Assembly (NCBI RefSeq): GCF_000787575.1
Contig: NW_012236514.1
Location: 186,001 to 250,000, forward strand
From: Acytostelium subglobosum LB1
Taxonomy: Eukaryota > Evosea > Eumycetozoa > Acytosteliales > Acytosteliaceae
Direction: 5' to 3'
Length of the DNA: 64,000 bases
Below the pieces are notes generated by a model that worked only from the letters and a program-made list of their open reading frames with translations, searched no databases and was not told the origin of the DNA. Of the stretch, positions 3,234 to 64,000 are shown piece by piece. The translations under genes were made by a program, and so were the position numbers. Every line of letters begins with the position of its first letter. Positions within the stretch are counted from its first letter, which is position 1.

Positions 3234-6200
3234 ATGTTATCAAACGACTCGCCACTTTCAAAGGGTAGCGAGTTGGAACGAGACAAGATGTCGTTCGCCC
3301 TCGGTGGCGATCACATCAATACAATGAATAATAATCAGAAACAACAACAACAACAACAACAACAGCAACAACAACAACAACTACAACCTCCTCCTACATT
3401 GATACTCAATAATAATGGAAACAACAACAACAATAATAATAATAATATGATACCATTCTCATCAATGGGTGGAATGTTGTCTGGTTTGAACAATAACAAT
3501 AACAATCATGTATCATCAAGTCCCATGAGTATCAATGGCAATACATCAACAGACTCATCACCCAATCACTCACTACTCTTTGGCATCGTTGACAATCTCA
3601 CCACGCCCAGTAGCGCCAAGTTCAATGCATCAATCCAGGGAACAAGGTAAGTGTGAACAGAGCTGGGCTCACTCATTCAAACTCAATCATACTCATACTC
3701 AATCAATCAGATCAAAGGATGCATCAGCTAGACGAAGGAAACATCAACAGAGTAAATCACAGAGCTATTCAAACTTTACAAACTTCATGCCTGATCTTGG
3801 CGTCGTTGGACTGCCGATTAACAGTCAGGAGGATCAGAGCGAGGCCGTGCTGGACTACTGCAGCGTGCTGAAGGACAGGCTGAAGCAACTGTCATCACGC
3901 ATTCAAATGGACAACACAGAGATGGCTCACAAGGATGCTGAGATCGAGCTGATGACTGGCCGTCTCAACAAGTACAACAACGAGATCAGGGAGAAGGAGG
4001 AGGAGAACGAGCGACTGCACGAGCAGATCAATCAGCTGCAGAAGCGTCAGCACGACGAGAGCATCACAAAAAACACGCTGGAGCGCGAGCTGGTCAACAT
4101 CAAGGACCAATGGGTCAGTCCGCAGGAGATTGAGGATTGGAAGGAGCAGATCGAGGACGTCTCGGTGGTGATGCATCGCAAGGACGCCGAGATCGAGTCA
4201 TGGATGGAGAAGGTGCAGCTGCAGGAGCAAAAGGTCGAAGCGCTGCAGGAGCAGCTGAGGCGTGAGCGCGATCTCAATGTGTTCTCACGGCAAGAGTCGG
4301 AGAACACCCATCGCCAGATGAAGCAAGAGCGCGAGAACTACTTCAGTCAGATCGAGGAGCAGAAGGCACGCGCAGATCGCGCCAAACTAAAGACCAAGTC
4401 CTGGAAGGAGCGACACAGCCGCGCCACAGTCGACGTGGAGGCCAGTCAACGCGCGGTCGACAAGATGAAGGGCCAGCTGTCGAGCGCCGAGATCGAGTCG
4501 CTCAATCATCAGAAGGAGATCGACCGTCTGCGCCAGAGTCTGTCCGAGTCGAGCAAGAAATACGACGATCTGAGCAGCTCACAGCAATCGATGACGCAGG
4601 AGCTCAAGCAATCAGAGGGCGAGCGTCTGGCCATCATCGGTCTGATGAACAGGAATGAAGTGGAGATTGAAGAGCGAGTGTCGTTGCTGGTGTCCGAGTG
4701 CGCCAAGTCCAACGAGACGATCGCACGCCTCAACGAGCGCATTGGCGAGCTGGAGTATCAATTGGGAAGTGAGCGATTGAGCAAGCGCGTGACCGCAATC
4801 TCGCTCACCGATGCCACCTACACAATGTCCGAGAAGAACCTGATCAAGCTGGTGCAGGAGAAGGACGAGGAGCTGCAGCGTCTCAACAAACAGGTGCAGC
4901 GACTACAGATCGATTCAAACTCATTGATGACGCGATACAAGAAGATGGAGGAGAACATGAATGAGAACTCATCACAGCTGCAGTTCACCAAGAAGTCATT
5001 GCGCAACTCTCGCAAGGAGTTGTCCAAGATCACACAGGAGCTACTCATACTCAGTGATGAGAACTTCACCGAGAGCATTGGTAGCAACACATCGATACTC
5101 AAACGCAAGTCATTGGACCTAAGCGATCTGTCAAGGATCATGCAAGAGTATGATGCTACCGCTGAGGCTGACAACAACAATCATGGTGTCATGGACGACA
5201 AGAATGAACAGGCACAAGACAACAACAACAACAGTGGATACATTGCGAGCCAACCTGTGACATCACCTTTGAAACAGACACGTAGGGATAGAGGCAAGTC
5301 GACGCCACCCGCAGTGCAGAAGCAACTTCAACAACAACTCCAGCAACAAAAGGAGACTGAGGAGGCCAATGCCAAGGCCACCGCAAAGGCTACATCATCA
5401 TCATCCAAGACCAAGTCCAATAACAACGATCAAAAGGCAACGACGTCGACGCCAAAGACTGTGGAGCAGGTGGAGGACATGCTGGAAAGGGCACGTTCCG
5501 CCAACATTGGTTATAGACTGCACATTCAATTCTTGAACAAGGAGATCAAGATGCTGGAGAAGGACACACAACAACAGAAGGACTATAACGCAACACTTGT
5601 GACTCGTTTGAACTTGGAGTTGGAGGAGTCACGCAGGACAAACGCACGCATTAGAAAGGCATTCCTTCAGCGATTTGCAAAGGAAGACGACTCAATCTTT
5701 CTCGACTACTATACGATTGCAGACAAGCATCATCCACCTATCAACGCATCTGTACAGAAGGAGTTGATGTTACCCATTACTCCTATATCCCCTTCTTTAT
5801 CATCATCTTCATCTTCTTCATCATCAATGGCAGAATCACCATCAACATCATCTACATCATTATCACAACCAACAACAACAGTATCTTCAGCAATTGTCGA
5901 CAAGGCTGTAATTGTTGTTGCACCGAACGAACAAGAACGAGAACAAGCCACATCAACATTGGCAACAAAGACTTCAAGCAATGGTAGTAGTAGTAATACC
6001 AGCCCGACCTTCCTCAAACAACAGACCACAACAACTACAACAACGACGACAACTACAACTACTACATCCAGACAAGTGGATCTGAATAGGCAATGTAACA
6101 AATGTAGCAAAGAGTTTGGAATGTGGTCAAGGAAGGTAAGTTAGGACAAACACGCAATCAATCAACCAACCAATCGTCTAACACTCCTGTCCATCCACCA

Positions 6201-17701: not shown

Positions 17702-20700
17702 TCAAGTTGATGAGCTGGTCACATGCTCACCAGCGACAGATTGTCCTGTGGACGATGGACTGGTAGCTCCACTTGATGCCGCCAGACGAAGTGTGAGTGG
17801 CAAAGGGGTGAGAGCGATGCGCTTGTGCATCAACTTCTTCATTGGCGTGGTATCAGTATCGTTGGGATAGTGGAAAAGATTGGTGGTGACATTTGTGTGC
17901 GAGATTGAAGATGTTGACGAGGTTGTCGTTGAGGAGGATGAGGTCGTCGTTTGGGAGGATGAAGATGAGGAGGAGGTTGGGCCACCAGATGCAGGCATCT
18001 TTGTTGGAGTGGAGCCTGTTGGTTTGGTCAAGACAGAACTCTTGTAGGCCAGTGTTGACACTGGTAGTTTGGTGGCAGCTGGCTTGGAGAGTGAGTGTCC
18101 CATCGTCTTTGTCAGTGACAGAGGTGAGGCTGGTGGTTTGGTAGTGGGGGCGACCGTGCTCCTGGTAGTCTGTTGTGACTTGACGGATATTGGCGATGGC
18201 GATGATGATGCGCTGCCCTTGGCAAGCATGGGCGGCTTGGCTCTGCTCAGCAATGTTGAGCTGGATGCATTGCTGCTGCTTCCAATGGTGGGGCGAGCAG
18301 ATGTTGTCTTGGTGGGTGTTGTGTTCCTTGACGAGGTGGTGGACGAGGATGAGGTCATCGTTGTGGTCGAGGACTGTGTAGCCTTAGTTGGAGTTGAGGG
18401 CGTTGATGACGATGGGGTCGAAGATGTAGATGTGGATGTGGATGTTGACGAAGATGATGTTCCAAGACTTGCTAATGACAGAGATGATGATGACAATCTC
18501 TTCTTGATGTTGGACAGTGCCACACCAATCGTTGATGTTTTGGTTGGTGCTGGGGGCTTGGCGGTTGATGGCTGAGGTTCAGGTGCCTTGGGTCTTGGTG
18601 AAGATGGTCGGGATGGAGGCTTGGCAACAACCCTTGGTGATGATGGTTGTTTGGTGATGGGTGAGGTCGTAGTCGAGGAGGAGGGTGTTGTGCCAGTGAC
18701 AGTTCCAGTGCCAGTACCAGTGGTCGATTTTGCCAAGTGACTCAGCGTTGGTCGTGAGAGTGATCCAGTGTTTGGAGATGTCTGTGGCACCTTGACAGTG
18801 CTACTGCTGGCAGTGGAAGAGGTAGTTGATGGTTTGGATATTGCCAATGGTTTGATGGGACTGCCAGCTAACCTTGATGATGACGATGTTGAGGACGATG
18901 AGGATGTGAGAGTTGGTTTGGAGACCAATTTTGTTGTGTTGCTTGATGTTGTTGTCGACAATGATGATGTTGTTGTTGGTCTGCTTGATGTTGTAGTTGG
19001 ACTGGTGACAGTCATAGTCCTTCGTGTTGGAGGTGGTGTTGTAGTCAGAACACTTCTTGTCAATGTCTTGGGTGGTAGTAATTTTGAGGGAGTGGATACA
19101 GATGATGATGATGATGGTGAAAGAGGTGGCTTCCTTAATGATGTCGGGGTGGTAGTTGTTGCAGTTGCAGTTGTTGTTGTTTGCTTTGTTCCAGTTGTTG
19201 TTGTTGTTGATGGAGGTACAGTTTGCTTCTTTCCATTGACCCATTTAACACCTGTCGATGCACTTGTTGATGTGACTGTAGTGGACCTTGGAGAGTCCTT
19301 TGATACCAGTTGTCTCGCTGATGATTGTGATGATGCCATTGGTGGAAGTTTGGAAGTTGAACGAGGTGAAGCAACTGGTTTGGTTCGAATGTCTGATGAT
19401 GCTGGACTGCCAATGACTGACTTGGGTGGTGTCTTTACCGGTGCCTTTGACTCTGTCGTCACTGTGGCCTTGGGTGCCTCACATGCAACAGGTTGAAGCA
19501 TCTCTTCCTCAGCGATGCGAATAGGTGGATGGGCAATCTGTTGTGCAGTTTGCTGCTGCAGCTTCTCTGCCTCGTCGACTGGCACTGGAGCTGGCACTGA
19601 TACTTGGTCATTGCTCGCGGACAATGTTGGTATTACAAGCTCACTAATGATCTGCTTCCATTTCTCAAAGCATAGTTCCATCTTGTTCTGTAGCGCCTTG
19701 ATGTTCTCTGGACAACATTGCGAGTGGATGTCCATGCCAACCTCAAGTAGGAGTTGTTGTTTGAGAAGTAGGTCCTTGAGCTTGCCAAGAAGGTCCGGGT
19801 GTGCAGGGTTCTCCTCCAAGTAGCATTGACTAAAGAACACTCGGTACATGTTGATTCCACCAGAGACTGCTGCGTCCACCACACCATTCAACGCCATTGT
19901 CAGGCCTTGTGACCATTGCTTCTGCTCCTTTGACGAGTCGACAATGCCCTGCAGTTGTTTGTTCTTCTTGTTGAGGTCTTCAATGGCAGTCTCGAGGGGA
20001 TTGCGCTCGATCTCAATGATGGACTTGACCTCACTGCAACGTATCAAGTCGGGGAATGTGTTTGACGAGACGATGTACGTATTGCACGTCCACAGGTCGA
20101 GGAACTCATTGTTGCTGGCCGCCACCTGGTCGCCCTCCTTCTTCTTCTTCTTGAAGGGTTGGGAGTAGAAGAATACTCGCGAGTTGTTGTGGATGTATGC
20201 CTGCTCGTCCTTAAAGTGCGAGCGGAGTGTGTGGCCCTTGGACACCATGTGCTGTTGTTGATTGGCCATGGCCAGCGTCTGCACGCCGGCGAATATCTTT
20301 GGCAGGAAGATGGGCTTGCATGGTCGAATGTGCACGTACTGGCCAGTGAGTATATCATCCTTGTCAGTCTTGGGCACCACCTGTGCGCCAGGATATCTGT
20401 TCTTCATCCTGCCTACAAAGTTGCCAAGCTTCTCTAACACATTGCCTCTAAAGATGAACTTCTTGGCATCAACAGACTTGGGGAAGCCCTTGCCTCTGAA
20501 CTCCACCAAGAAGTACTCCTCAAAGAATCTCTTCTCTTTGTCTCGCGATTGGTAACATGTATGCTCAAGTTCCTAAGTTGATTGATTGAGTGAGTGAGTG
20601 AGTGAACGTGATTGATTGGCATGTGACATCAACATACTGATAGGGCAACCATCTTCTTGATCAAAGTGTGTCGTTGCTCGGGCTGTGTTAGCTTGGGCAG

Positions 20701-22324
20701 GTCCTTCTTGTATCTCTTGCGCAACTTGTTGATGATTGATAGTGAACGCTCCCAATGCTTGCCCTCGATGAATAGCTGTATTGATGCGTTTAGGAGTCGC
20801 TCCTTGCGATCGGAGTGCACCTCTGATGGATATCCATGCTCGGCTGGGAAGGTGGCTTCACCATTCCAGCTGATCAGCTGACAGTGATTCAACAAGCAGT
20901 TGGCAGCCTCAATCCTATTTCCAAATGTAATATGTATAGTCTTTAGCTCTTCCAACTTGCGAATGTACTCTGTTGTCGAGTCAGTATGCTTGAGGTAGTT
21001 CTGTTTGATTGATTGATTGATTGGGTCAGTGAGTGAGTGCCATAGAGTTTGATTGTGATTACAAACATACCAATACTTTGTACAACATGATGGTGATATC
21101 ATGCTCATATTCCGGCGTGACTGGGAACAATACCAACATCCTCTCAACCTCGCAGTATGAGTTGTCCATGAAGTCTGATGAATGTGGAGGAGTGTGTTAG
21201 TGTCGTTCGTTCACTCAATCAATCAATCAAGGTAACATACAATGTTGAGTGTATAACTCCTTCCAAGACTCGGTGGTGGCCTGACTGTGCAGTTTGTCAA
21301 GGATTGCCTTGGGACGTTGGAAGCGCTCATTGAACTTGATCAACCAGAGTGAGTCCTGTTCGGAGACTGTCTGCCACCATCGACATGTGAGTCCTACACG
21401 GCATATGTCTTGTGGGCCAAAGTGCTGGAAGATCGATATCAGCAGCTCGGCCGGCAGGTTGCCCAGACCGCCCTGCAGCAACATTGAGTGAACGTCTGCG
21501 TAGGCGTGCATGACTGTCGTCGAGCTCGCATTGACAGGAGGTGGCGACTGAAGCGAAGGGTGTTGGGAAGACGAGGGCGACAGTGTCAGTGTCAACGAGC
21601 GATCGCGCTCTGGTGAGTTGATGTAGAGTCGCGATGCCAAATTGTTACAGGTCTTGCGTCGACGAGGTGGCGAGAACACCTTGGTTGGAGGTGACAGCGT
21701 TGAGCTGTTGTGGGGCAGCGGTGTCGCGCCAGACAGCGGCAGCAATGAGGTGGATGATCGCTTGCCAGTGAGCGGGGTCATCAGTATATAGTGCTCTTGT
21801 GGCGTTGATGGCGATGCGGGTGGAGTCGACAGTGGAGTATTGTTTGATGTGTTGTAGTGATGTGATGTTGTTGATGATGATGAATGTGGAGGATGTGGTG
21901 TTGATGCTCTCACTGGACTAATAATACGTTGTTGTTGTTGTTGATGGTTCTCGCCAAGTCTGTTGATCGCATTACTACTGACACTGCCACTCATACCAAT
22001 ACCAATACCCATGCTCATGTTGTTGTTGTTGTTATTGTTTGACATATTGTTGTTTGATTGATTGCAGTCTGGTATTGGTGAACTGATTGGTGAGCCAGAT
22101 ATAGTGGATGATCTTCGTCGTGGGATGGTTGGCGTCAGGAATGACTTTGGATCAATGTCATCAAACGAAGAGTCATCACTTATTTTCATCGATGAGATTG
22201 ATGATGTGGCCATTGTTATTGGGCCATCATCAGACGATGATGATATCATATTGATTATATTGTTATTGTTATTGTTGTTATTGTTGTTGGTTGTTGTAAT
22301 AATATTTATATTATCTGTAATCAT
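17702..22324 (-). CDS. F-box plus DOCK-type DHR-2 Rho-GEF fusion protein
   Basis: Four exons (21241-22324, 21071-21174, 20638-21000, 17702-20572) join in frame to 1473 residues. The N-terminus is Asn/Ser-rich with DD-rich patches. An F-box lies at about residues 285-330 (NLPAELLISIFQHFGPQDICRVGLTCRWWQTVSEQDSLW). It is followed directly by a DHR-2/DOCKER domain (about 362-830): helical lobe A with EAANCLLNHCQLISW and ERSLSIINKLRKRY, then RFFEEYFLVEFRGKGFP, the TFPDLIRCSEVKSIIEIERNPLETAIEDL block, and ALNGVVDAAVSGGINMYRVFF. DHR-2 domains exchange GDP for GTP on Rac/Cdc42. The last 640 residues are Ser/Thr/Pro-rich and basic. The F-box could link the GEF to an SCF ligase; that is inference. Confidence 0.85.
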
Positions 22325-22739
22325 TCTTTGTCTTCTTCACTTCACTTGTTGGTATTACAAGGTAGATCTGATCAAGATGATGATCAATCTGACAATCTAT
22401 CTAACTTTCTAATCTCTCTTGTTGTTGAATAGTTAATAGTAATGTTTGGAAGTTATATATATACACGTGGTAATTGTATAAGTATTACTTATGTATGTGC
22501 ACACTTAGTACCGAACACTAATCAAAAGGTGATTGTTAACCCACATTTTGTAATTTGGCGCCAAATTATTTGAATAGTGAAAGGTATTGTTCAATCAATT
22601 CTTTGACAATTGAATACATATTTACTCTAGATATTGAATTAAAGAATTTATATCATTAATAAAAGGGAAATATAAGATTAAAAGAGCAGCGGCCTTAATC
22701 TGGCTATAAAATGCGAATTTTTTATTTGCCAAAAACATA
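22325..22739. other. Intergenic region with an E2F-like palindrome
   Basis: Promoter side of the F-box/DHR-2 gene and 5' flank of the tRNA gene. It holds the 18-bp palindrome at 22551-22568 and is otherwise AT-rich with no gene. Confidence 0.55.
22551..22568. promoter_or_regulatory. Palindromic E2F/DP-like site
   Basis: The 18-bp perfect palindrome TAATTTGGCGCCAAATTA contains TTTGGCGC on both strands, which fits the E2F/DP consensus TTTSSCGC. It lies about 230 bp upstream of the F-box/DHR-2 start codon. The symmetry is seen directly; factor binding is inferred from the consensus. Confidence 0.5.
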
Positions 22740-22812
22740 GGCTCCATAGCATAGCTGGTTATTGTACTTCCCTAGTAAGGAAGGGGTCACGAGTTCGAAT
22801 CTCGTTGGAGCC
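22740..22812 (+). tRNA. tRNA-Thr (anticodon AGU)
   Basis: The 73-base gene folds as a standard cloverleaf. The acceptor GGCTCCA pairs with TGGAGCC, the anticodon stem CTTCC pairs with GGAAG around the loop CTAGTAA (anticodon AGT), and the T stem ACGAG pairs with CTCGT around TTCGAAT. The D stem is imperfect (one mismatch and one G-T pair). There is no intron, and CCA is not encoded. The internal B box GTTCGAATC is intact, and a TTTT run at 22813 is the likely Pol III stop. It lies about 640 bp from an intact DNA transposon. Confidence 0.95.
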
Positions 22813-22816
22813 TTTT
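22813..22816 (+). terminator. Pol III terminator of tRNA-Thr
   Basis: A TTTT run directly follows the tRNA 3' end. Confidence 0.7.
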
Positions 22817-23273: not shown

Positions 23274-23456
23274 TTATTTAATACTATTTATTATATATGG
23301 TAACTATTATTTTACCATTATTCTTGTTCATATTAGTAATATTTTCTATTAACTAACCTACCTCCCCTCCCCTCCCTTTGATTTTTTTTTGCTGTGCTGC
23401 ATAACAAATTTATCGTTTATTATTATTAACCTTTGTTCTTTAATTTTAATTTAATA

Positions 23457-23516
23457 CAGTATGTTTCATAAGTTATGGCCACCCCCTGTTCAAACAGGTA
23501 CGAGTTTGATATCTCC
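23457..23516 (+). repeat. Left terminal inverted repeat of the Tc1-like element
   Basis: Pairs with 24994-25053. The first 32 bases differ at one site (CAGTAT versus CAGTAC), after which identity falls but the CAAACAG and TTGATATCTC blocks are kept. It contains CATAAGTTATGGCCA, a likely transposase site. Confidence 0.9.
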
Positions 23517-23758
23517 TACAAATATGGTTCAAGATTCTTATTCACTTCCAAATATAGTAGTCCACTTTTGCTCAAAAATTTCCATTTATGAATATTTTTC
23601 CAAAAATGGAATTAATATATCTTTATCATTCAAACGATATTTTTGTTAAAGTAATGAACATGTCCATTATTTATGCAATAGTAAAGAATGAATGAGTTCA
23701 AACATCAAACACTTTGTTGGAAGAGATAGAATATTATTTATGTACATTACAATTAATC

Positions 23759-24775
23759 ATGTCATTAACAGAAGAAGAGAGAGCTAAAATCGTGAGAGCC
23801 AGAAGGAGAGGATATTCAAAGAAATTAATATCAAAGATGTACAATATTTCCCGATCAACTGTGAGCAGGACTATTCAACGACACAGCGAGCGAGGAGACT
23901 TCAAGGACCGTCTCAAATCGGGACGCCCTTCAAAGTTTTCAAGAAGACTTAGAAGGAGGATCATCAAAGCTTTGGTCAGGAAGGAGGTCATCACTTTGGA
24001 CGAGTTGAAAGCCAAACTTGAACTGAGATACGATACAGAGATATCAACGGCTCAAATATCTCGTATCGCTGCAAAGGAAGGTCTCACCTATCGCAGTTTA
24101 AGCAGGAAGCACGATCTAAAGCAAGTAAACGCAGATCAAAGGCTCGAGTTCGCTATGGCTCATCGAGACTGGACAGCGGAACAATGGGAACAGATAGTAT
24201 TCTGTGATGAGACCACAATTGAGTCCAACTTCAAGAACTACCGTCAACACGAGTGGGCTAGACAAGATAACAACACATTCAGTCGAGTTCATGGCATCAG
24301 GAGACTTCCCGGAACCAAGGTCAATTTCTGGGGATGTGTCACGAGTGCTGGTGTCGGATATCTCTCTGAGATTGAAGGCAATTTAGAAAACACTCAATAC
24401 ACGGAGATTCTTGATGATGCATACTCTCGATCCATCCGATATTATCATGGCCAACTCCCAGACTTTACACTGGCGATGGACAACTGTCCAATTCATAGAG
24501 CAACAAATGTCACCAGCCACTTGAGAAGGAAGAGGATACCCACCCTATTCATTCCCCCATATTCACCAGACATCAACATTATAGAGAATCTTTGGGCGAT
24601 CTTGAAGAAGAGAGTCAAGAGAGAGCTGGCAAAGAACCCTGGAGTGGTCCTTTCCGACCTTGCCAATGAACAATGGGAGCTAATGGATGACAGCATTGTT
24701 GAGAACCTATACGCCTCCTTGCCACAACGAATGGAGGACATTATAACAGCGAATGGATGGTGGACCAAATATTGA
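23759..24775 (+). CDS. Tc1-like DD34E transposase
   Basis: An intact 338-residue frame from the ATG giving MSLTEEERAKIV. An N-terminal paired-like helix-turn-helix region (about residues 1-110) includes the GYSKKLISKMYNISRSTVSRTIQRH helices and the GRPSK hook. The catalytic DDE domain has FCDETTIE, then MDNCPIH, then SPDINIIENLW. Exactly 34 residues separate the second Asp from the Glu, which is the DD34E signature of Tc1-like enzymes. The full acidic triad is kept with no stop or frameshift. It would cut and paste the element by binding the terminal repeats in the nucleus. An in-frame TTG start upstream is unlikely. Confidence 0.95.
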   Translation: MSLTEEERAKIVRARRRGYSKKLISKMYNISRSTVSRTIQRHSERGDFKDRLKSGRPSKFSRRLRRRIIKALVRKEVITLDELKAKLELRYDTEISTAQISRIAAKEGLTYRSLSRKHDLKQVNADQRLEFAMAHRDWTAEQWEQIVFCDETTIESNFKNYRQHEWARQDNNTFSRVHGIRRLPGTKVNFWGCVTSAGVGYLSEIEGNLENTQYTEILDDAYSRSIRYYHGQLPDFTLAMDNCPIHRATNVTSHLRRKRIPTLFIPPYSPDINIIENLWAILKKRVKRELAKNPGVVLSDLANEQWELMDDSIVENLYASLPQRMEDIITANGWWTKY

Positions 24776-24993
24776 CAACCTCCTTTGTCATTATTCTAGT
24801 TCATCGTTCCGATACCTTCGATCAATTTTCGTTGCATAAATAATGGCCATGTTCACTACTTATCATTTCAACACTCTCATTCAATTATTTGTAAATAAAT
24901 ATAACTAGCAATAAGTAATTCAATCAAGATTAGTAGATAATTGAGTCTATTATTTAGAGAGATAAGATATCATTTGGTATCTCTTAATATTGA

Positions 24994-25053
24994 AGAGATA
25001 TCAATCACCTATCTGTTTGCTCAGGGGGTGGCCATAACTTATGAAACGTACTG
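24994..25053 (-). repeat. Right terminal inverted repeat of the Tc1-like element
   Basis: The reverse complement matches the left end as described there. The terminal TA duplication at 25054-25055 is present. Confidence 0.9.
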
Positions 25054-25055
25054 TA

Positions 25056-25768
25056 TGTTTGGTTTTGTTCTTTGTCTTTTACATGTTGACTCTTTGCCCA
25101 CAATGTACTGCTGTGCAGTCAAAATTGTGTCAACTTCACTACGATTGATTCCTATTGTTAACCCTCATATTAAGTTACTATGTAAAAACGAATTCAAATC
25201 CTTAAGTCGTGCAATCACACAGCAATTCTCTCACAGGGGAATTGATGCAGAGGTCACCAATCGTGCGCGACTTTAACTGTTTTTCAAACATCTCGATCAC
25301 ACAAATGATCACCAAATGTGTAGATCATTGATCAAGGTATTGTCAACTTTATATATATTTGTATACATTCATCATGTGTCATTACATTTATAGTTAGTTT
25401 ACTGTTAGTAAATAGCAATCTATTAATTAAATATGCATTATACTCTTCAATATACTTGAGCATCATTTAAACAGCATCGATTAACAACAGTTCAAGCAGC
25501 AACAAATTTCCAACAGTCAACGATCAACAACAGTGACGTCAATCAATCAATAACAACAAGTATCCAGTGTTAATAACATCAACAACAATAGCAATCAATC
25601 ACAATAACAGCAGCGACATCAAACAATAACAAACAAACAAACAATTATAACAACAGCCACATCAATCAATCACAACAGTAGGGACCACAATCAATCACGA
25701 CACACGCAATCTCTCTATCTGTACTAACGATCAACTGCAGCAACATAACAACAAACAAACAACAACAA
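25056..25768. other. Right flank of the transposon up to the assembly gap
   Basis: A 74-codon open stretch (about 25056-25276, plus) ends at TAA and includes a balanced segment (NPHIKLLCKNEFKSLSRAITQQFSHRGIDAEVTNRARL). It has no start of its own and no family that I know, so it may be the 3' end of a gene split by the insertion. From 25489 the DNA becomes low complexity (CAACAG, CAATCA). No further gene is seen. Confidence 0.4.
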
Positions 25769-26289: not shown

Positions 26290-26380
26290 TCTATTATACC
26301 TGTTGTATTGATGCACTCATTAGGATGTTTATCTTTATATTACCTAAGATCAACCTTAGGTGCGATCTATCGGAGCATTG

Positions 26381-26958
26381 ATCGTATCTCAGTTCAAGTT
26401 TGGCTTTCAACTCGTCCAAAGTGATGACCTCCTTCCTGACCAAAGCTTTGATGATCCTCCTTCTAAGTCTTCTTGAAAACTTTGAAGGGCGTCCCGATTT
26501 GAGACGGTCCTTGAAGTCTCCTCGCTCGCTGTGTCGTTGAATAGTCCTGCTCACAGTTGATCGGGAAATATTGTACATCTTTGATATTAATTTCTTTGAA
26601 TATCCTCTCCTTCTGGCTCTCACGATTTTAGCTCTCTCTTCTTCTGTTAATGACATGATTAATTGTAATGTACATAAATAATATTCTATCTCTTCCAACA
26701 AAGTGTTTGATGTTTGAACTCATTCATTCTTTACTATTGCATAAATAATGGACATGTTCATTACTTTAACAAAAATATCGTTTGAATGATAAAGATATAT
26801 TAATTCCATTTTTGGAAAAATATTCATAAATGGAAATTTTTGAGCAAAAGTGGACTACTATATTTGGAAGTGAATAAGAATCTTGAACCATATTTGTAGG
26901 AGATATCAAACTCGTACCTGTTTGAACAGGGGGTGGCCATAACTTATGAAACATACTG
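26381..26958 (-). mobile_element. Truncated copy of the Tc1-like transposon (578 bp)
   Basis: The copy runs on the minus strand from its outer end at 26958 (target TA at 26959-26960) to a break at 26381. It matches 23457-24034 of the intact element in length without any gap, and I saw no base difference in the stretches I compared. It keeps one terminal repeat, the inner 30-bp motif and the first 93 codons of transposase. It lacks the DDE domain and the other end. The insertion interrupts an ankyrin-like gene. The break leads into unrelated DNA. Confidence 0.92.
26414..26659 (-). pseudogene. Transposase 5' fragment in the truncated copy
   Basis: The DNA-binding half of the Tc1-like transposase, starting at the same ATG as the intact copy and identical in translation up to ELRYD, close to the break. 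The frame then runs about 30 codons into foreign DNA before a stop. Without the catalytic triad it cannot transpose; such a fragment could in principle still bind element ends. Confidence 0.8.
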
Positions 26959-29731: not shown

Positions 29732-32700
29732 CTATTTATTTACAAAGAAGGTTGGGTTAAAGATGGCAATAGGCACTTGGAACTCCTCCTTTAGGTTCTG
29801 GACAGCAGAGATTAAGAATTGATACCTCTCCTTCCTAGTGGATGGCGTTGCATTCTTTACATTCTGCTTCAAGTGTACATCGTATATCTTGCACAGTCTA
29901 GACATAATCTCCTTTTGTTTACAATAGGGTATGAATAATACATTACAAATTGGTTTGCTCCTATAATTATTGTGAATGAATGAATGGTTAGTAATCTAGT
30001 CAATCTTGAAGTACAGGAGGATGATATTATACATACCTTAGAATAAATAGTGGAAGTTGTGAAAGGTCTACTATATCATGGTATGTGAATATGAATACTG
30101 GGAAGTGGATAGAGTCGTCAAAGCTCTCCAAGAAGTTGACAATGCCAGATATCTTGGATGTGGACAGGTCAAAGAAGTCCAAGTACTTGTACTTCTTCTT
30201 GACAACACTTGGCTTGACTCCAAGTTTGATCAATGGCGAAAGGAATGGTTGATTATCGTTTGGCAATCGGCCTGATGGTGTCTATATATGATTGATCATA
30301 ATGGTTAGTGAGTGAGATGGAATGCCAATGGAGTGGGTTATATAACATACATTGATGGTCGTGTAAAGGTTGTAAAAGATGCTCTTGAGCAATCTGTCCT
30401 TGCGTTGGTTGTCAATGTAGTGAGTCTTGTCAATGGATGAGTTGCAGCAACTGACAAAGGTTGGGATAATTCCATTCTCTTGGTTCTCTGGATCGCTAAC
30501 GTCCACACATGATGTCTTCATCAGGTCGTAAAGGGTAAGGTATCGCACCATAAAGTCCTGTATGATCAACTCCCAAGGGAACACCTGGAGACTCTTTGAG
30601 CAGATAAAGATCATTGGCGAGGTTGAGATGTTTGTCGCTGGCAGGGTGGCTGCTGACATTGTTGCCTCTGACGTCTTGGAGTTGCCAAAGAACACAAATG
30701 ACCTGGTCTTCTTGGCATTGGCAGCTGCTGTTGCTGCCGCCTGCGACTTGTGGGCCTCTGTGTCTGATTTCTCTGTGGGCAGTATCTCAAACAGCGAACC
30801 AAAGACTGAGCGTCTGAGATCGTTAACAATCTTCTTGCGATCAATGTCCTCTTGTGTGACCTCCTTGGATGAGGTGAGCGACAAGAGTGAGAGCAACGAT
30901 GTCAGGGTGTCGGGCTTGAATGCAATGGCCTGATCATTGACGTCCTCTGACGATGTGGTCAGAGGGCTGTCCAATGCACGACTGCTGCAACTCTTCTTCT
31001 CCTCACCACTGTTGACAAAGAGTGAGAGTTGTAGCGCATTCCTCTCGGTGCACTCATTCATCTCCCTCTGTGAGAACACCTTGCTGAGTGGAACATTGAG
31101 TTGATCGAATGACATGTAGCCCTTGGCGTGTGCCGGTCCTCCTCTGGTCATGCGCTTTGCCAAAGAGATGAGTGACAGCTGGTCCTTGGTGTACACCTTC
31201 CTGCCCTGTGAGGCGCCCACACTGTAGCTTCGGTTGTGTGGCTCGGACTGTGCAGCTGCCGCGGCAGCCGCCACCTTGTCGTAGGTGGCGCCGCCCGATG
31301 GTAGTATGGGCTGAGTGTTGGTGTGCTGGTGGTGGACCTCTGAGCCTGCGCCGTCGACTGTCTCGATTGCTGTGGGTGGTCCAATGATTGAGTTCAAGAA
31401 TCCAACGAGCTCGTTATGGAAGTTTGTCGTCTTCTCTATGAATCGTGGGGCAGACTTGAGGGCGTTGTGTGTGTTCCTGCTGAATGAGCCAAGGAAGCCC
31501 TTCTTCTTGGGGTCTGCAGCCTGCGCGCCGTCCACCGCCCAGTAGGGTCGGTTGCAGAGGGTGTACAACACCTTGTCCAGTGTGATCTGAGGGCTGACCA
31601 TGAATGACACCTTCTCCTTGGGATTGGAAAGAAGCATGATGTCCAGATAGACCATGTTGGTGCAGGGCTGCATCGTATCCAACTCCTCCATGCCACCAAT
31701 TCTGTTCAATCTCTTGCGTCCACTGTGCGGTAGATAGTGAATAAAGTAGTTGTCGACCTGTAGAGAGTACACCAGCTTCTGAAGCGAGGCGTTGATCTTG
31801 GCCTGCGCCGTTGTGAATGACAACTCCTCATACTTTGTGGAAAGGTCGCGTCTATTTGCTCCAAACACTGCGGTGGTGGTTGTGGACGATGCGTTGGAGG
31901 GTGTTCGTGTGCGGCCCATCAAAGCCTCGTGAGATGGTGATTGTGACTGAGTGATCTTGGGGCTAGCATTACCACTGCTACTGCTGTTGCCGGAAGCCTG
32001 TTGCTGACGGAACAATGATGCCAGACTGTTTGAACTCTGGAGCATGGGGATGTTGGGTGAGCCTGGCGATGAGGGGGTCGCAGCTGGGGCACTCTGGCTG
32101 ATCACTAGATGATTCTTGTACGCCTGGTGGATGGCCAGGATGTGCTTGATCGTGACCTTGCATCGTGTGGACAGATCGTCCTGGTTGATCTTGCCGATTG
32201 AGTACTTCCTGATCTCATTCTTGATGTAGTGCAGTGCACCCCACAGCTTCTCGCCAACGTCGTCTCCTGTCTTGACTGGACGCTCCTCTGGCCTGGTGCG
32301 CTCACAGAACGGTTGCTTGGGGATACTGAGCGTATGGACGGAGAAGTCCATCGAGATGGCGGCAGTCATCTCTGTCTTGCGCTTGATGTTGCGACCCAGT
32401 GTCAATGACTTGCCCAGGTAGGGGATGTAGATCTTGCCAATCATAGGGTTGGCATCATATGAGATTGGTCGGTTGGGGTTGATGGGACGCTTGCGTGCTT
32501 GGGCAATGTCAATCTCGAGCGAGAGGTAGCTGTCCACGAGCATCAGGTTCTTATTGATAAAGTCCTGATCAAAGGCAAAGAGGAATCGTATCATTCGCTT
32601 GCATGATTCAAACACCTTCTTGAGGAAGTGTAGTGGCGCGCTCTTGCCGATAAAGTGTGGTCCATCGCAAAAGAGCGTGTAGAAGAGGTTGCGCGCCTCG

Positions 32701-35700
32701 GTCCAATATGAGATGGCCAGATCTCGGTCGCCCTGCAAGAAGCGCAGCTCGGCCATGTTCATATAGGTGCGTAGCAACTGGAGTATGTTGCATGTGTTGA
32801 TGTTGACGTCCATGGCCACGGTTGATGGGTTCTCTATCATGTCCAGCGTGATGTAAAAGTCACCAGACGCAGGTTTGACGGCAGCTGTATCAGCTTCAGC
32901 CGCAGCCTTGGCCTTGCCACGCTTGTGCTTGTCGTCTTGTTGCTGCTGCTCACTGTCTCTTTGCATGAAGATCGATAGGTTGAAGATGGAGAGGCGTGCA
33001 ACATCATCGAATGGATAGTGATGTAGGGCGACGGGTGCGAACAAACGATCCAGGTACAATTCTGCAATGTGGCTGACGGTCTTTTGGATCTTGACATCGT
33101 CACCCGTGCTCTTGAAGTAGTTGTAGGCGCGCTTGAAGCTTGCAATTCCCTCCTGGAGCAGGTCGCCCGTGGATGTGTAGTTGGTCAGCTGGGAGGAGTC
33201 GATAAAGTCACGCCACTCTTCTCCGGATGGCCGCAAGTTTGTGGGGAATGTGATCAACGTGGCGTTACACAGCTGGATGAGGCGTTGGAATATCTTGCCA
33301 CGAGTGTAGAAGTACTGGCCACGAGCGTTGAGTGAACTTAGTGGACATATCTCGATGGCGCACTCAATGCACAGCAAGGCCTCTGCAAACTTGTTGGCCG
33401 CGAGGTAGTTGAGACAGTTCAGCACCCAATAGTTGAGGTTGCGGTCGCTCTTGTTGCCGCCACTGCCGCCGCCAGCAGCGCCCGATTGGCTGGCACTCTT
33501 GTTGGTGAACGCGGTGATTGGCGCGCCCTTGAGGATGCCGAGTTTGAGTGCAGCGTGTTGAGTTTGAGCTCCGCTCTCCTCGGCCGACGAATCGAGCTGA
33601 TTGAGCACGTTGGTGCACTCATCAAACATCTCCATCTTGGTGTAGGCCTTGGCCAGCAGGAAGAACAGGGAGTTCTGTTTGCCATGTGGCAGTGTGTGGC
33701 GACGCATGGTCATAAGCAGCTCGAGACCCTTCTCAAAGTGATAGCTCTCCAGATACAGATTGATCAACTTCATGTGCAGTTGGAAGAAGATTGGGTTGTC
33801 ATACTTGGGTGACTCGACCAGGTTCTTGCTGATTGATGCCGGGTCACCGGGGCCGATGGGATGCGCCGCGACTGTGGACTGCGACGAGGTCGACTTATGA
33901 AGGATGAGAAGCACCACCTTGAGGTACTCCTCACACTGCTTATAGTTGCCGAGTTCGCGATGCATTGAGCTGATCACCTCGCAGATGTAGACGATCTCGT
34001 TGGTCTTGGACTGTGGGTCGCTCTCAAGGTAACCATTCAGCACTTGTTTGAAGTAGTAGATCGCGGAGTTGATGTCATCGTTCTCGCGAGCCAAGGTGGC
34101 CACCTTGCTCAGTAGTGACAGGTACTCCTTGCGCTTCTTGCGTATGTTGAGATTGAGCAATGCATTGTCAAAGCTGACGATGGCGTATTGGTACTTGTAG
34201 TTGTCAAGCAACACGCTCGCGTAGCTGAAGGATGCATTGCCGGCTAGTTCGGAAAGGACAAGCGGCAGTCCGACCACAGGCTGTTTGCATCGATCCACAA
34301 TGTACAGACACTCAAAGAACAGCTTCTCAGCCAGAGCAAGCTCGCTGTTGTCCACGGCGTGAAGGCCCAATGCATAGGCCGCCTTGGCCTTTAGGAAGTT
34401 GGTGGCGGGAAGCTCTGTGTACAGCTTGGTCAGAAGGGCCATGCGATGATTGGCATCGAGTAGCTGAACAAACTGGGCGTCGACATTGACGCTGGTGGCT
34501 GGTTTGTCAGAGAGTCGAGCGGTCGTCAGAGGTGAGATGCCATTGACGTGGAAGTGTACGTCTATGAGGGCCTTGACCATGGCGCTCTTGAGGCCAATCT
34601 CCAGATAGTCCTTGTACTTGGCGTCTGCTTGCTGTTGCTGCTGCTGTTTGAGTGCGCACTGTGTGTACACGCGCAGGAACACGTTCAGAGGGTTGACCTT
34701 CTCCTCCTCGCTTCCGGCAAACTCCTCGGGGCGCGTCCGCAGCTCGGGCTCCTCAAGGTCAGAGTCACTGTTGTCATTGTCGCTGTCCGAGTCACCTGAT
34801 GAGCACTTGTGATGTAAATGATGTGAATAGGTCTCGGCGGCCATCAGCTCGACGTGTGCTGCGTTGGACGCCGACAGGTTCTTGAGGCCCTGACACATAT
34901 GGCGGAACGACGAGTCCTCCTCGGCGCGCCACAGCTTGGCAGCAAGATAGAGCATCTGAAGTGCATAGTGGTATGTGGCATCCCTCTCATCTATCTCCAT
35001 TGATGCCCTTCTTGATGATTGTCGCGGCGATGCAGGTGGCCGCAGCAGTGAGGTTTGGGTGGTTGTGGGCGTCAGTCGACCTGCGGTTGGACGCACGAGT
35101 GGCGATGAGTTGCCACCACAGTCGCGCAGCGCCAGGAAGAACTCATGAACGCTGTCCCAACACGGCTCGTCATAGTCAAAGATGTGCAGTGTGTAGCAGA
35201 ACTCCAGGTTCATCTGTGTCCATTTCTTGAGGTTGTTCTTCACCTTGGTGGACTCGAGCGTGAACTCGTTGCGAAGCTCCTCAAGCGCTGCCTTCTTGGG
35301 GAGCACGCGCAGGGCCATGTCAGCGCCATCGAGGTGTTTGATGACGAGGCCAGAGAGCCACTGCGAAAGGGCCTCCTCATGCATGAATGGATGGCCGTCT
35401 GGTGTGTTCATCGAGTAAAGGTAGGAAGGCTTGGGGTACTTGACAATCTCAAACGTCTGATTGTTGACACCCTCAATCAGTTTGTAGTGCGATGGCATCC
35501 TGTCCTTGTTGGGCGCGACGTTTGGTGCCTGGCCAGCCAGTTGCAACACCGGCCGACTATCCTCCTCGACGTCAAGACCCAGCTCTGCATCCCAGTCCTC
35601 TTCGTCCGACTCAAAGTCCTGTGTCGACGTCGCCTTTGTCGTGTCCTGTACCTGTATGATTGGCTTCTGTTGTTGCTGTTTCAAGTGTACAATTGTATCG

Positions 35701-37519
35701 CGATAGAGTTGGACGCACTCGTTGTATAGTGCGCCATGTTGTTGACGTGCTGCAGTAGCGTCCAGGTGTATGGCGCCAAAAGATCGTTGTGCTGCTTGCA
35801 CGGCCAGATCGTGCTCCTCCATCATCTTGAGTGACTTTGCCAACTGGAGACATCCATTGGCCAGTGAGTGTACAAGTGAAGCCTCTCCTGCCACTGTCTT
35901 CTTCAAGTCGACCTGCTTGCAGTCTTTGTTGTGTAGATGTTGCTGTGTGCATGGCGTAAAGAGAATGGCGCGAATGGCGCTCTCAAAGTGGCGTGCCGCA
36001 TATATTGGTGTTTCGGTGGCCAGATAGCACATGCCCAGTTCAACGTTGATCTTCTGCTGCATGGCCGCCAAGTCGCAACGCGCAATACACAGTTCCAGTG
36101 CCTTTTTGAGATACTCTGTCGTGTTGAAGATGTTGGCCATGGCCTTGTAGGCCAGCCCCAGTTGGTAGTACAGGTTGAGTTCGTACAGTGTCTGTGTGTC
36201 GTCGAGTGGCGCCGCATCAAAGTCGTCTTTATGCTCTTGTAATATACGATTAGCTGTTGTGAACTGAGCCGATGCTGCCATTGTCTGTTGATTCGAAGAG
36301 TATATCAGACCCAAGTCAAAGTACATCTTTGACAAGTCTACCTTTGCCACGCCAACTCCACCAGTAGCGCGATCAATAACTACATTCTGTGCGTCCAATC
36401 TTTTCTTCATCTCTGTTTCTGTGTTGATTGTATTCATTGATGGATTGATTGATTGATTGATTGATTGGGAAGGAGTGAGTGTCAGTATGTGAATGTGGGA
36501 GGGTCCACCGTTGAGCTCCTGGCGCGGCAACTGTGTTACCAGACCAGTGGCGGCACAAAGTGAGGACAGACTTACCACTTAGTACTTTGAGTTCATTGAG
36601 TGGAGGTGTCTTTACATCGATGGTCTGGTGTGATTCATTAAGTTCTACATGTCCAGGGCCAACTAGAGGTGGGGAGGGCAATGAGGGGTCAGTGAGTGCC
36701 AGATGCAACATCCTCACTTCGGATCTTACAATTAATACATGATATCAGTTCGGATACAGTTGCCAATAGTTTGGCATCTAGTGTGGATGTCGTCCTGCTT
36801 CCAAATGGAATGGACTTGCTACCAGACATGCTGCCACTGCTGGTATTGTGATGATGGTGAATGGATGTGCTGCTGGTGATGTTCGGTTTGCCAGTCATGC
36901 TGATGCTAATATTGATGTTGTTGCCAGGTTTGCCGAGTCCACTTGCGGTGATACTTGGCATTGACGCTGGAATGCCCGTTGACGAGCTCTGCTCCGACTC
37001 TGAGCTGTCATTGAAGACAAAGTCGTCGTCCCACTCGGTCTTGACTGTGGGATCCGCGCGGATACCCAAGATCTTCATCTGTGGCTGTAGTGTCGCGGCA
37101 GACAGTGGCGACTTGATGCTCGTGGCAAAGTCTGCGTCCCAGTCATCATCGTCGTCCTGTTGTGTCTTGGGTTTGGGGATGCTGGTGCTGCTCACGCCAC
37201 TTGTGGCGGTGCGACCAGAGGATGCCACGGGGTTGACGACGGCATCCCAGTCGTCATCGTCCTCGACATCGCCATCGTCGAATCCAAAGTCGCTCGAACC
37301 ACTCTTTGGCGATGAGGATATAGTTGTTGCGGGACCACCAACACCACGAGAAGTGGTAGTCGTCGCCGATGACAATGCTGGTGACACTGGCAAGAACTTC
37401 TTTGACAGATTACCAATAGTCAACTTGCGCTGCAGTGACAAATGTATAGTTGGATGATCATTGCTATTATTATCGAATCCAAACTCATCGTCCCAATTAT
37501 CATCATCGTCATTGGCCAT
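29732..37519 (-). CDS. Giant TPR protein with acidic WDD-rich N-terminus and CHAT-like C-terminus
   Basis: Five exons (36730-37519, 36576-36662, 30351-36418, 30037-30281, 29732-29960) encode 2472 residues. The N-terminal 260 residues are acidic and repeat a Trp-Asp motif (NWDDEF, DWDADF, EWDDDF, and later DWDAEL). TPR-like helical repeats fill much of residues 300-1500 (for example LYELNLYYQLGLAYKAMANIF). The last 250 residues (PMIFICSKSLQVFPWELIIQD... and the exons after it) resemble a CHAT domain, a caspase-like fold often found after TPR repeats. A catalytic His/Cys pair is not certain. Poly-Ser/Ala linkers lie between. The 5' end needs two small introns, so models starting near 36578 would be wrong. 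Confidence 0.85.
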
Positions 37520-38260
37520 CTATATATTATATTATATTATTACTATTACTACTACTACTATTGTTATTGTTGTTTTTGAATTGTACAAATGAATGAATGA
37601 GAGTGAATGAGTTGAGTCTCACACTTGATTCTTTTTGTTGGAGATTGAATGAATGAGTGAGTGATGTTCCTTATTTGAATGTAATAATAATATATATATT
37701 TTTTATTTATTTATACATACATATATATAACAAATAATAATAAATAATATCGTGTAGCGAACAAATATGATATGATATTTTTGAAGGTTTGATAAATGTG
37801 TACAAACTTGTGTGAAGCCAGTGTTTTTGATCAAAAACTTTTAAAAGCAAGCCCCGATCGGTCTTTTTGATAATCAAATTGGATTGTTGAAGGGGGTCTG
37901 GTCCAGATCAGAATGCAAACAATCTTTGATTCAGATACATTCACACACTCACAAACACACATATTCAAACACACGATCAAAGACGAAAGTGATCACGTTT
38001 GACAGAACACAAACACACACATAAATATACATGTTCACACATACACATACACACTCACATATGATAAATTGACAACTAGTTGACCATTGATAATGAATGA
38101 ATAATGATTGAGATGGTGGATGTCCACATGGATGGATGGATGGATGTCGGCATCGTGATGAAGAGATGGAATTGTACAACACATCACACATTACTATAAA
38201 CTACTAATCTTACCATTTCAGTTGAAAAGACCGACCAAGTTTAAAGAAGAAATCATTACA
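37520..38260. other. Divergent intergenic region
   Basis: It lies between the TPR protein and the amino-acid transporter. It contains GTTTTTGATCAAAAAC (16-bp palindrome, 37823-37838) and CA-rich tracts near 37940-38060. A TTTCAG at 38216-38221 looks like a splice acceptor and suggests a 5' UTR intron of the transporter. No gene is seen. Confidence 0.5.
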
Positions 38261-40701
38261 ATGATGGAGTCGATTCCATCGCCATCGCCCGCTCCAGCAC
38301 CAGTCGTAGCGCCAATATACTCGGACGCCAGCGGCCAAAGTACTCAATCAATGTTCACAAGTAATGACAGTATACCTAATATATTCTTTGGCAAAGGCCC
38401 GATAAAGTCAAGATTAAAGACATTTGGACATATGTGTAAGCGACAGCGCACTTTGGAAGAGTACCTACAAGTGACTCAGACAACTCCAGAAGTACCCCTG
38501 GCCAAAGAGCACGACCTCTCTACCACATCCACCTCGGAGCCGATGGTCACACATCAACCTCACCTTCGCAAATGTCTCAACTTATTCGATCTCCTTGCAT
38601 TTGGTGTTGGCTCAATCATTGGCTCAGGTATCTTTGTGTTGACAGGTGTGGCAGCACGCGACTATGCTGGCCCCGCCGTCATCTTTTCATTCCTGGCATC
38701 TGGATTTGCATGTTGTCTATCAGGTCTGTCCTATGCCGAGTTTGCCACTCGTGTGCCAGTCTCTGGATCAACATACAGTTACTCATACATTGTTGTTGGC
38801 GAGATGGTTGCATGGATCATTGGTTGGGATCTCACACTAGAGTATATGATAGCCAGCGCGACAGTGGCACGAGGCTGGAGTGGCTATCTCAATCAGTTGA
38901 TCAAATCATTTGGAGGCTCAGTGCCGCATCCACTCGACCCATACTACATCAGTGATAGTATATCAATTGATTTAATTGCCATGCTATCTGTATTGGTGTT
39001 GACTGCAGTCGTTGCCTTTGGAATGAAGGAATCAGCTCGATTCAACAAAGTATTCGTCGTGGTCAAGATCATCGTAGTACTCTTTGTCATCATCGCCGGT
39101 TCATTCAAGACCAACACAAACAACTGGACACCATTCACTCCATTTGGTATCCGTGGTATTTTCAATGCTGCAGCCATCACATGTATGTTTGTTTCCAGGA
39201 ACGTCATGTGAAGTCCATCCTCTAACCATTACCCTTACCCTCACCCTCGCCCTCGCCCTCGCCCTCATGACTTAGTCTTTGCCTACCTTGGGTTTGACTC
39301 TATATGTAATGTGGCTGAGGAGGTAGAGAAGCCTCAGAGGGACATACCCATTGGTATCCTTGGATCACTTGGCATCTCCACAGCACTCTACTTTAGTGTC
39401 AGTGTCGTGATCACACTAATGGTCAAGTACAGCGATATGTATGTGTTATGTACCCTCTCAATCAATCAATCAATCACTAACTCTTTGATCACGTTATCAT
39501 TGTAGGGATGTCAATGCACCTTTATCAGCAGCGTTTGCATCATATGGGTGGAAGTGGGCAGAGGTGATTGTGGCTGTTGGTGCATTTGCAGGTTTGACTA
39601 CGGCACAACTTGGTGGATTGATCAGTCAGCCAAGATTATATTATTCACTGAGTAGGGATGGATTGCTACCAAAGATCTTCTCATATATACATCCCAGGTT
39701 CAAGACACCATTCTTTTCAACATGGCTAACAGGAATATGTGCATCAATCATTGCACTATTCTTTGATATCAAAGTATTGGCTGACATGGTATCCATTGGA
39801 ACACTCCTATCCTTCACCCTAGTGTGCGCATGTGTATTGGCCAAGAGATATCCAGTCCTCAAGGATCGAAAGGACTCAAATGGTATGTTATGTGGTAGTG
39901 GTGGAACTATTCCATCCGTCAATCAATCACTCATATTCATACCATCCACCACCATTAGCCAGATGGATTGTCAAGTACTTGCCAGCAGTGTTGCAACGTC
40001 CTATTTACTTGTGTATTGTTATTGCAATCTTTGCAGCGATATGTTCGGCTGGATATATACATTATATGCATTGGTCAGTCAGTCTGGTGTTTGGAGTGCT
40101 TGGATTGATACCCAGTATAACCATCTTCTTCTTGGTACCCTGTGATATACCCGTTGGCTTCAAATGTCCTCTCGTGCCACTCGTACCCATACTTGGCATC
40201 TGGGTCAATGTCTACTTGATGATGTCACTCAGTTGGCAGACCTGGATCAGACTAGTGGTCTGGCTGTTCATTGGCCTGCTCATTTACATATTCTACGGTC
40301 AGAAGCATAGCAATGCTGGACGATACATCCAGATGAACACCTTTGGCAACACCAGCCCCGGCGACGACTTCTCAGACGACATGGACGACAAACTGGGTGA
40401 CACACCTCAAGACAAGCTGGCTGATGGAGATCCGACCACTGCCAATGCCAACGCAATGTTGTTGCCCGAGGCAGGACTCGGTCTGGACCAACAGAATGAG
40501 TTACTAGTGTCTTCAGCGTCAGAGTCAGAGAACTCACCAACATCATCATACTCATCGGATATCATGGACGACGAAGAAGACCAACTCGACGACCACGGCA
40601 ACATCCTACAAAGAAGGAATGTAATAGTAACCTACAGGGTCACTGGAGGTGGAGAGGGCAATGATGGCAGGACGACGCCACCGCCACCTCCGCACCCGTG
40701 A
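38261..40701 (+). CDS. APC-family (cationic) amino-acid transporter
   Basis: Four exons (38261-39182, 39276-39438, 39506-39882, 39959-40701) encode 734 residues. The first membrane block begins LLAFGVGSIIGSGIFVLTGVAA, the substrate-binding GSGIF motif of the APC superfamily. About 12-14 membrane helices follow, with FFAYLGFDSICNVAEEVEKPQRDIPIGI (formed only after splicing) matching the conserved CAT-family block. The C-terminal 120 residues are cytosolic, acidic and Ser-rich. The family carries amino acids, often Arg/Lys, across plasma or endolysosomal membranes. The start could be the ATG at 38261 or 38264. The first intron carries telomere-like C-rich repeats. Confidence 0.9.
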
Positions 40702-63473: not shown

Positions 63474-64000
63474 TGACTCTAACTCTATATAGATAAGATA
63501 TATATTTATATGATTATAAGTTATATTTGAATGAATGAATGTATGAATGAAGATTCTTTCAAAGTTTGAAGTTGAAACACACACAACTAACCTTCAATCT
63601 ACATTGGATGCAACTACCTCTGAGGTTTATCATGAAAAAAACAGGGTGTTTCGGAGTTTGAGTTTGAGATGGCGATGATGGTGTGTGAATCGTCGTCATT
63701 AAAGGTGGTTAGGTCACTCTGTCAGTTATTTGCAGCATCTTCGTTAACATGAACACATGATTGTTACTTTTTGTCAATGAATTGCGCTACTCTCGGAGGC
63801 ACAAGTCAATGAAACTTATCGGCCGAATCAAAACAATCAGATTTGATAATATATAATATATCTTTGTATTTATTTGGAAGTATGGTATATCTAAAGATGA
63901 TTCAAAAGAGAGACAGAGGCAATAAATATATTATGATTATTATTTGTATACATATAAGTATTAATCCTATATTATTTTAATGGTATTGGGTATTACAAAT
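63474..64000. other. Right-edge intergenic region
   Basis: AT-rich DNA upstream of the glycerol kinase gene. No gene, tRNA or clear repeat is seen up to the window edge. Confidence 0.5.

Follow-up and report, generated by a model that had tools for sequence, protein, structure and literature searches.

An F-box joined in frame to a DOCK-type DHR-2 exchange domain in a predicted gene of Acytostelium subglobosum

The human F-box protein FBXO8 (Fbx8) carries an exchange domain for small GTPases in the same polypeptide, and it is reported to act on Arf6 within a Skp1-Cullin-F-box (SCF) complex (PMC2721971). ECT2L (FBXO49, ARHGEF32) appears both among the F-box genes (PMC3984280) and among the Rho guanine nucleotide exchange factors (GEFs), in a table that gives its target GTPase as "not yet determined" (PMC7281527). 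In Dictyostelium, whose F-box-like Skp1 interactors have been surveyed, the enzyme JcdI/Fbxo13 uses an F-box of its own to bind Skp1 (PMC9485057). The DOCK factors represent a different arrangement, and according to a review all human DOCK proteins combine their exchange domain, DHR-2, with a DHR-1 domain (PMC10152721). The subject of this report is a predicted gene of Acytostelium subglobosum LB1 in which an F-box is followed by a DHR-2 domain of the DOCK type. It lies on the minus strand at 22324-17702 of the window, that is, the whole stretch of 64,000 nucleotides (nt) that was analyzed, positions 186,001 to 250,000 of contig NW_012236514.1 (assembly GCF_000787575.1).

Four predicted exons join in one open frame of 4422 nt, equivalent to 1473 residues and a stop codon, and the phases at introns 1, 2 and 3 (1, 0 and 0) agree in the way that the original prediction described. 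Exon 1 (21241..22324) contains a low-complexity N-terminus and the F-box, exon 2 (21071..21174) the beginning of DHR-2 lobe A, and exon 3 (20638..21000) the rest of that lobe, exons 2 and 3 being placed by splicing and by alignment to paralogues, exon 3 also by alignment to human DOCK5. The remainder of DHR-2, including lobes B and C, and a long tail fall in exon 4 (17702..20572), which is placed by splicing, Pfam matches and the DOCK5 alignment. The intervening introns measure 66 nt (21175..21240), 70 nt (21001..21070) and 65 nt (20573..20637), and each opens with GTATGT and closes with AG, preceded by C in the first two and by T in the third. Their GC content is 0.37-0.41, as against a third-position GC content (GC3) of 0.67 in the F-box part of exon 1 and 0.62-0.69 in the DHR-2 exons.

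The F-box, expected at about residues 285-330, was found by Pfam at residues 288-327 (21344..21463, minus strand; PF12937, E 2.5e-12), where the F-box-like match scores 46.8 bits against a curated cut-off of 24.3 in a search of residues 1-858 and 51.1 bits in the genome search. A search of the PDB also matched it to the F-boxes of FBXL5 and FBXW7 (E 7e-5 to 2e-4). For the exchange domain, the Pfam picture is partial. Lobe C (residues 736-828; 19640..19921, minus strand) lies above the cut-off at E 4.5e-11 (PF20421, E 5.9e-11 and 46.8 bits in the genome search), lobe A (residues 392-446) falls just under it at E 9.6e-5, and lobe B has no Pfam match in residues 1-858. Despite this, comparisons with single sequences indicate a DHR-2 of nearly full length: residues 393-826 align unbroken to human DOCK5 in a PDB search (E 9.2e-43), and tblastn with the predicted protein gives unbroken matches to four paralogue loci of the same genome (E 4.4e-47 to 2.9e-57). 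The same PDB search matched human DOCK2 at E 7.7e-42 to 7.4e-40 and DOCK9 far more weakly, at 0.002; as DOCK5 and DOCK2 match best, the domain is of the DOCK-A/B type.

The complete DHR-2 domain foreseen behind the F-box is thus borne out, with one refinement concerning its start. Similarity to the two best paralogues begins in tblastn at residue 368, and when the F-box exon is compared with the rest of the genome, 5 of 15 other matches run as far as residues 358-361, where exon 1 ends, though these are weak (E 4e-5 to 0.04). The exon junction at residue 361/362 on both counts lies at or near a domain border, with residues 328-361 read as the end of the F-box, DHR-2 starting at about residue 362-368, and the whole domain occupying residues 362-828 (19640..21174, minus strand, with introns 2 and 3 inside the span). 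The idea that the border preserves an ancestral intron was considered and is not supported: C46 has an intron just before FLELL, about six residues away from intron 1, and C38:416k has none there.

The F-box and the DHR-2 domain very likely belong to one gene, a judgement that draws on the in-frame splice with its uniform introns, on a gap between the two parts that resembles introns 2 and 3, on matching GC3, and on a junction near a domain border. Read without splicing, the F-box frame continues into intron 1 as far as a stop at 21227, with an ATG at 21169, 5 nt inside exon 2; this is what two adjoining genes, the first ending and the second starting at these points, would require. Such neighbors would be separated by just 57 nt from stop to start, though, and the gap between them would match introns 2 and 3 in both splice signals and size. 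Moreover, position -3 is a T for the ATG in exon 2 but an A for the one in exon 1, which lies in an A-rich context. Two separate genes, whether adjoining in the chromosome or merged by a fault in the assembly, are for these reasons given very little credence, and an assembly error is improbable because the splice is in phase near a domain border.

A wider view of the genome sets this gene apart from its relatives. The assembly searched comprises 30.7 Mb in 56 contigs, and the genome-wide lists of domain matches are lower bounds. Lobe C of DHR-2 matches at no fewer than 11 loci, and at 10 of the 11 a DOCK-C2 (DHR-1) match lies a few kb upstream on the same strand; the F-box/DHR-2 gene alone has none (genome search, E 0.001). 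The ten C2-bearing loci hold 11 C2 matches, one locus being split over two. F-box matches number at least 71 (150 of 165 candidates scored), and a single one of the 71 falls within 30 kb of a DHR-2 match on the same strand, namely the one described here, 1.7 kb upstream. The chance expectation of a same-strand F-box no more than 2 kb upstream is 0.025 over all 11 DHR-2 loci, a figure that, together with the in-frame splice, upholds the proposed single-gene fusion at the level of sequence.

By tblastn, the predicted protein belongs to the Doc-type group of paralogues, matching six such loci at E 1.3e-13 to 2.9e-57; three of the other four DHR-2 loci reach only E 0.06 or worse, and one gives no match. 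Five of the Doc-type loci were scanned with Pfam, and their upstream frames contain DOCK_N, C2 and/or TPR_DOCK; the sixth, C49, has a C2 by the genome search. The modules that usually precede DHR-2 in DOCK factors (DHR-1, SH3 or PH) are missing here, as had been anticipated, according to Pfam on the whole protein, the paralogue comparison and the genome C2 search. In particular, neither SH3/DOCK_N nor a Sec7 or DH exchange domain has a Pfam match in residues 1-858 or 859-1473, and 12 open reading frames from the six Doc-type loci, representing SH3/DOCK_N, C2, TPR and DHR-2 parts, had no match in the window outside the DHR-2 exons (E 0.01).

Three further observations concern the wider distribution of these domains. 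The 11 DHR-2 loci compare with 8 CZH (DOCK/zizimin) proteins given for D. discoideum in 2007 (PMC1914345), and a larger family in Acytostelium or an undercount in Dictyostelium may explain the difference. Among at least 97 DH (RhoGEF) exon matches, the nearest same-strand upstream F-box is about 5 kb away, on C35, the sole same-strand F-box/DH pair within 15 kb; this was examined as another possible fusion, but two doublecortin frames lie between (DCX, E 2e-18 and 8e-13), and the F-box and DH are read as separate genes. Outside the genome, an alignment pattern search of a genome-contig and a viral-contig collection gave 58 and 55 pattern matches, respectively, with none confirmed as a relative. 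To our knowledge, no other dictyostelid is represented in those collections.

How much of the exchange machinery is retained can be judged from 76 alignment columns that are invariant among four canonical paralogues and human DOCK2 and DOCK5. The gene keeps 57 of them, and retention is uneven: lobe C preserves 27 of 28 and lobes A and B together 30 of 48 (Fisher p 0.0008, with columns that are not independent). Among paralogues whose exons were joined by hand, C26 retains 59/76 and C32 47/76. Val753 (codon at 19865..19867, minus strand) aligns with the nucleotide-sensor valine of lobe C, Val1951 in DOCK9, which is described as invariant in DHR-2 lobe C, while Met743 and Asn746 align with Met1529 and Asn1532 of DOCK2, two residues named in the pocket for Trp56 of Rac (PMC10152721; DOCK2 residues were counted along the printed sequence). 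This pattern is consistent with an exchange factor under continuing selection for catalysis, a Rac being the simplest substrate. The suggestion that the F-box puts a Rac activator on an SCF ligase is plausible in view of the preserved catalytic valine. Cdc42, which the original prediction had offered alongside Rac, is an unlikely target, given a DHR-2 that resembles DOCK-A/B and a D. discoideum that, according to PMC1914345, has neither a Rho nor a Cdc42 orthologue.

The interpretation favored here, with a probability of about 0.5, is that a single gene encodes a Skp1-bound Rac exchange factor that is independent of ELMO and of lipids and that depends on SCF for its level or location. If the splices are used as predicted, the F-box would bind Skp1 and bring the protein into an SCF complex, and the DOCK-A/B-type DHR-2, to judge from its conserved residues, would open a Rac-type GTPase with the lobe C valine. 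ELMO contacts DOCK-A/B proteins through their N-terminal SH3/DOCK_N region. Because that region, DHR-1 and the TPR region are all gone, neither gating by ELMO nor membrane recruitment through phosphoinositides is expected, and a Skp1 plug would take their place. Binding to Skp1 would set the place of the protein and, most likely, its lifetime, so that the F-box would serve the turnover of the very enzyme it belongs to, an idea already put forward for JcdI. The long tail would be the phosphorylation-controlled part.

Several considerations weigh against this interpretation. Its basis is the sequence of a single genome, and turnover of the factor itself would fit the present evidence no better than ubiquitination of the GTPase. 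The pocket residues are not diagnostic, as the position of Asn1532 is Lys in C38:416k and C46 and Ser in human DOCK5, and the third pocket residue of DOCK2, Phe1598, corresponds to Leu811 here, likewise Leu in 4 of the 6 paralogues and in DOCK5. Outside lobe C the domain has diverged, with 18 of the 48 invariant columns of lobes A and B changed and an overall identity to paralogues of 24-34%. In a tree of nine rows, the gene also forms the longest branch, at 1.66 changes per column, with no settled place among the six paralogues; such divergence could mean relaxed constraint.

Taken furthest, the long branch and the altered columns of lobes A and B would describe a decaying GEF, one that is losing its exchange activity and whose F-box fusion has no selected role. 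Such decay is hard to square with 1473 codons uninterrupted by a stop or with change so unevenly distributed that lobe C is spared, subject to the same non-independence of columns, and it seems very improbable. The C32 paralogue offers a contrast in this respect, four residues being deleted from its lobe C sensor helix. That DOCK-type paralogue (L038, frame 4810-5532, plus strand), which also shows an Asp-to-Glu change in the helix, is nearest to the C26 gene, at 62% identity with rough exon joins, and it is possibly a catalytically dead DOCK in its own right.

A different use of the F-box is suggested by FBXO8, which has the same layout and whose complex with Skp1 and Cullin1 is reported to mediate an ubiquitination of Arf6 that is not tied to immediate degradation (PMC2721971). 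By analogy, DHR-2 might serve as a substrate receptor, with an SCF containing this protein binding Rac through DHR-2 and ubiquitinating it. The best-kept lobe is the one that carries the sensor, and a receptor that binds Rac could need that lobe too; a pure receptor would nonetheless have no use for the catalytic valine, and no ubiquitination target is known. This role is judged somewhat unlikely. Regulation of the exchange factor itself, through turnover or placing, is favored because catalysis looks preserved. Both activities might even reside in one polypeptide that turns Rac on and, in the same SCF, flags either itself or the activated Rac for ubiquitination, amounting to a built-in limiter of Rac pulses. 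This combination is a speculative and rather doubtful one; in dictyostelids, such a limiter could be tied to oxygen via the hydroxylation and glycosylation of Skp1, which in Dictyostelium is subject to oxygen-dependent glycosylation (PMC9485057).

The F-box may instead be a mere scaffold or localization handle on a soluble Rac exchange factor controlled by its tail. There is some precedent in JcdI, where the effect of overexpression on oxygen sensitivity is described as independent of its F-box (PMC9485057). The tail (residues 829-1473; 17705..19639, minus strand), predicted at about 640 residues and found to have 645, is 24% Ser and 21% Thr (about 44% together) and 12% Pro, and Pfam recognizes nothing in residues 859-1473 at E 0.01. 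It contains four [S/T]PR motifs where 1.15 are expected; this is the motif of the Dictyostelium chemotaxis kinase ErkB, in a study that places DocA in the core phosphoproteome (PMC6397043). The N-terminal 284 residues carry none of these motifs, however, and the excess in the tail is weak (four or more in 2.7% of 5000 shuffles), for a motif chosen after the ErkB paper had been noticed; nor are motifs proof of use. A purely structural role for the F-box is therefore held to be quite unlikely, and the tail motifs and the oxygen-dependent glycosylation of Skp1 are weak regulatory leads.

The 5' end of the gene is capped by a tRNA-Thr gene (22739..22814, plus strand), which lies 414 nt from the ATG. 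Farther upstream, about 1.1 kb from the ATG, a Tc1/mariner-type element occupies 23454-25056 of the window, with 62-nt terminal inverted repeats that are 89% complementary and a transposase frame at 23714-24775 that includes DDE_3. The transposase has 19 matches in the genome; five of these, counting the window copy, show 100% identity across 339 residues and another three 99%, so the element probably moved recently. A second, truncated transposase copy lies near the full one at 26375-26659 (minus strand; residues 1-95, 98% identical). Elsewhere in the window are an FGGY carbohydrate kinase (61890-63584, minus strand), part of an amino acid permease (38222-39211, plus strand), and an open frame of 2098 residues (30282-36578, minus strand) in which Pfam recognizes nothing at E 0.001.

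Set against the systems described at the outset, the gene shares with the DOCK-A/B factors, human DOCK2 and DOCK5 and the Doc-type genes of this genome alike, a nearly full-length DHR-2 and the sensor valine, while they have SH3/DOCK_N, DHR-1/C2 and TPR_DOCK where it has an F-box. The F-box exon stands where the front half of a DOCK protein belongs, and the catalytic lobe behind it is nearly intact. DHR-1 was looked for and is missing; the product is accordingly best described as an F-box protein by motif, with a DHR-2 of the DOCK-A/B type, and not filed as a member of the DOCK family. Its architecture is also distinct from that of JcdI, which is a dioxygenase and not a GEF, and from that of FBXO8, which has a Sec7 ArfGEF domain and acts on Arf where this gene has DHR-2 and, as we infer, Rac. 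ECT2L, whose F-box is a weak PDB match to the one described here (E 0.067), has a DH (Dbl) exchange domain, which is unrelated to DHR-2. No mention of an F-box paired with DHR-2 was found in the open-access literature, the extent of the search; the pairing may be listed in subscription journals or domain-architecture databases. All told, the union of an F-box with a GEF, a precedent to which the original prediction did not refer, is known for other GEF folds in human proteins, and its occurrence with DHR-2 looks real and unusual. If the protein works as drawn, a single molecule in an amoeba would allow study of how a Rac signal is switched on and how it is removed. With the Sec7 domain of FBXO8 and the DH domain of ECT2L as the first two, DHR-2 would bring to three the GEF folds that occur together with an F-box, a hint that the combination is useful and has arisen more than once.

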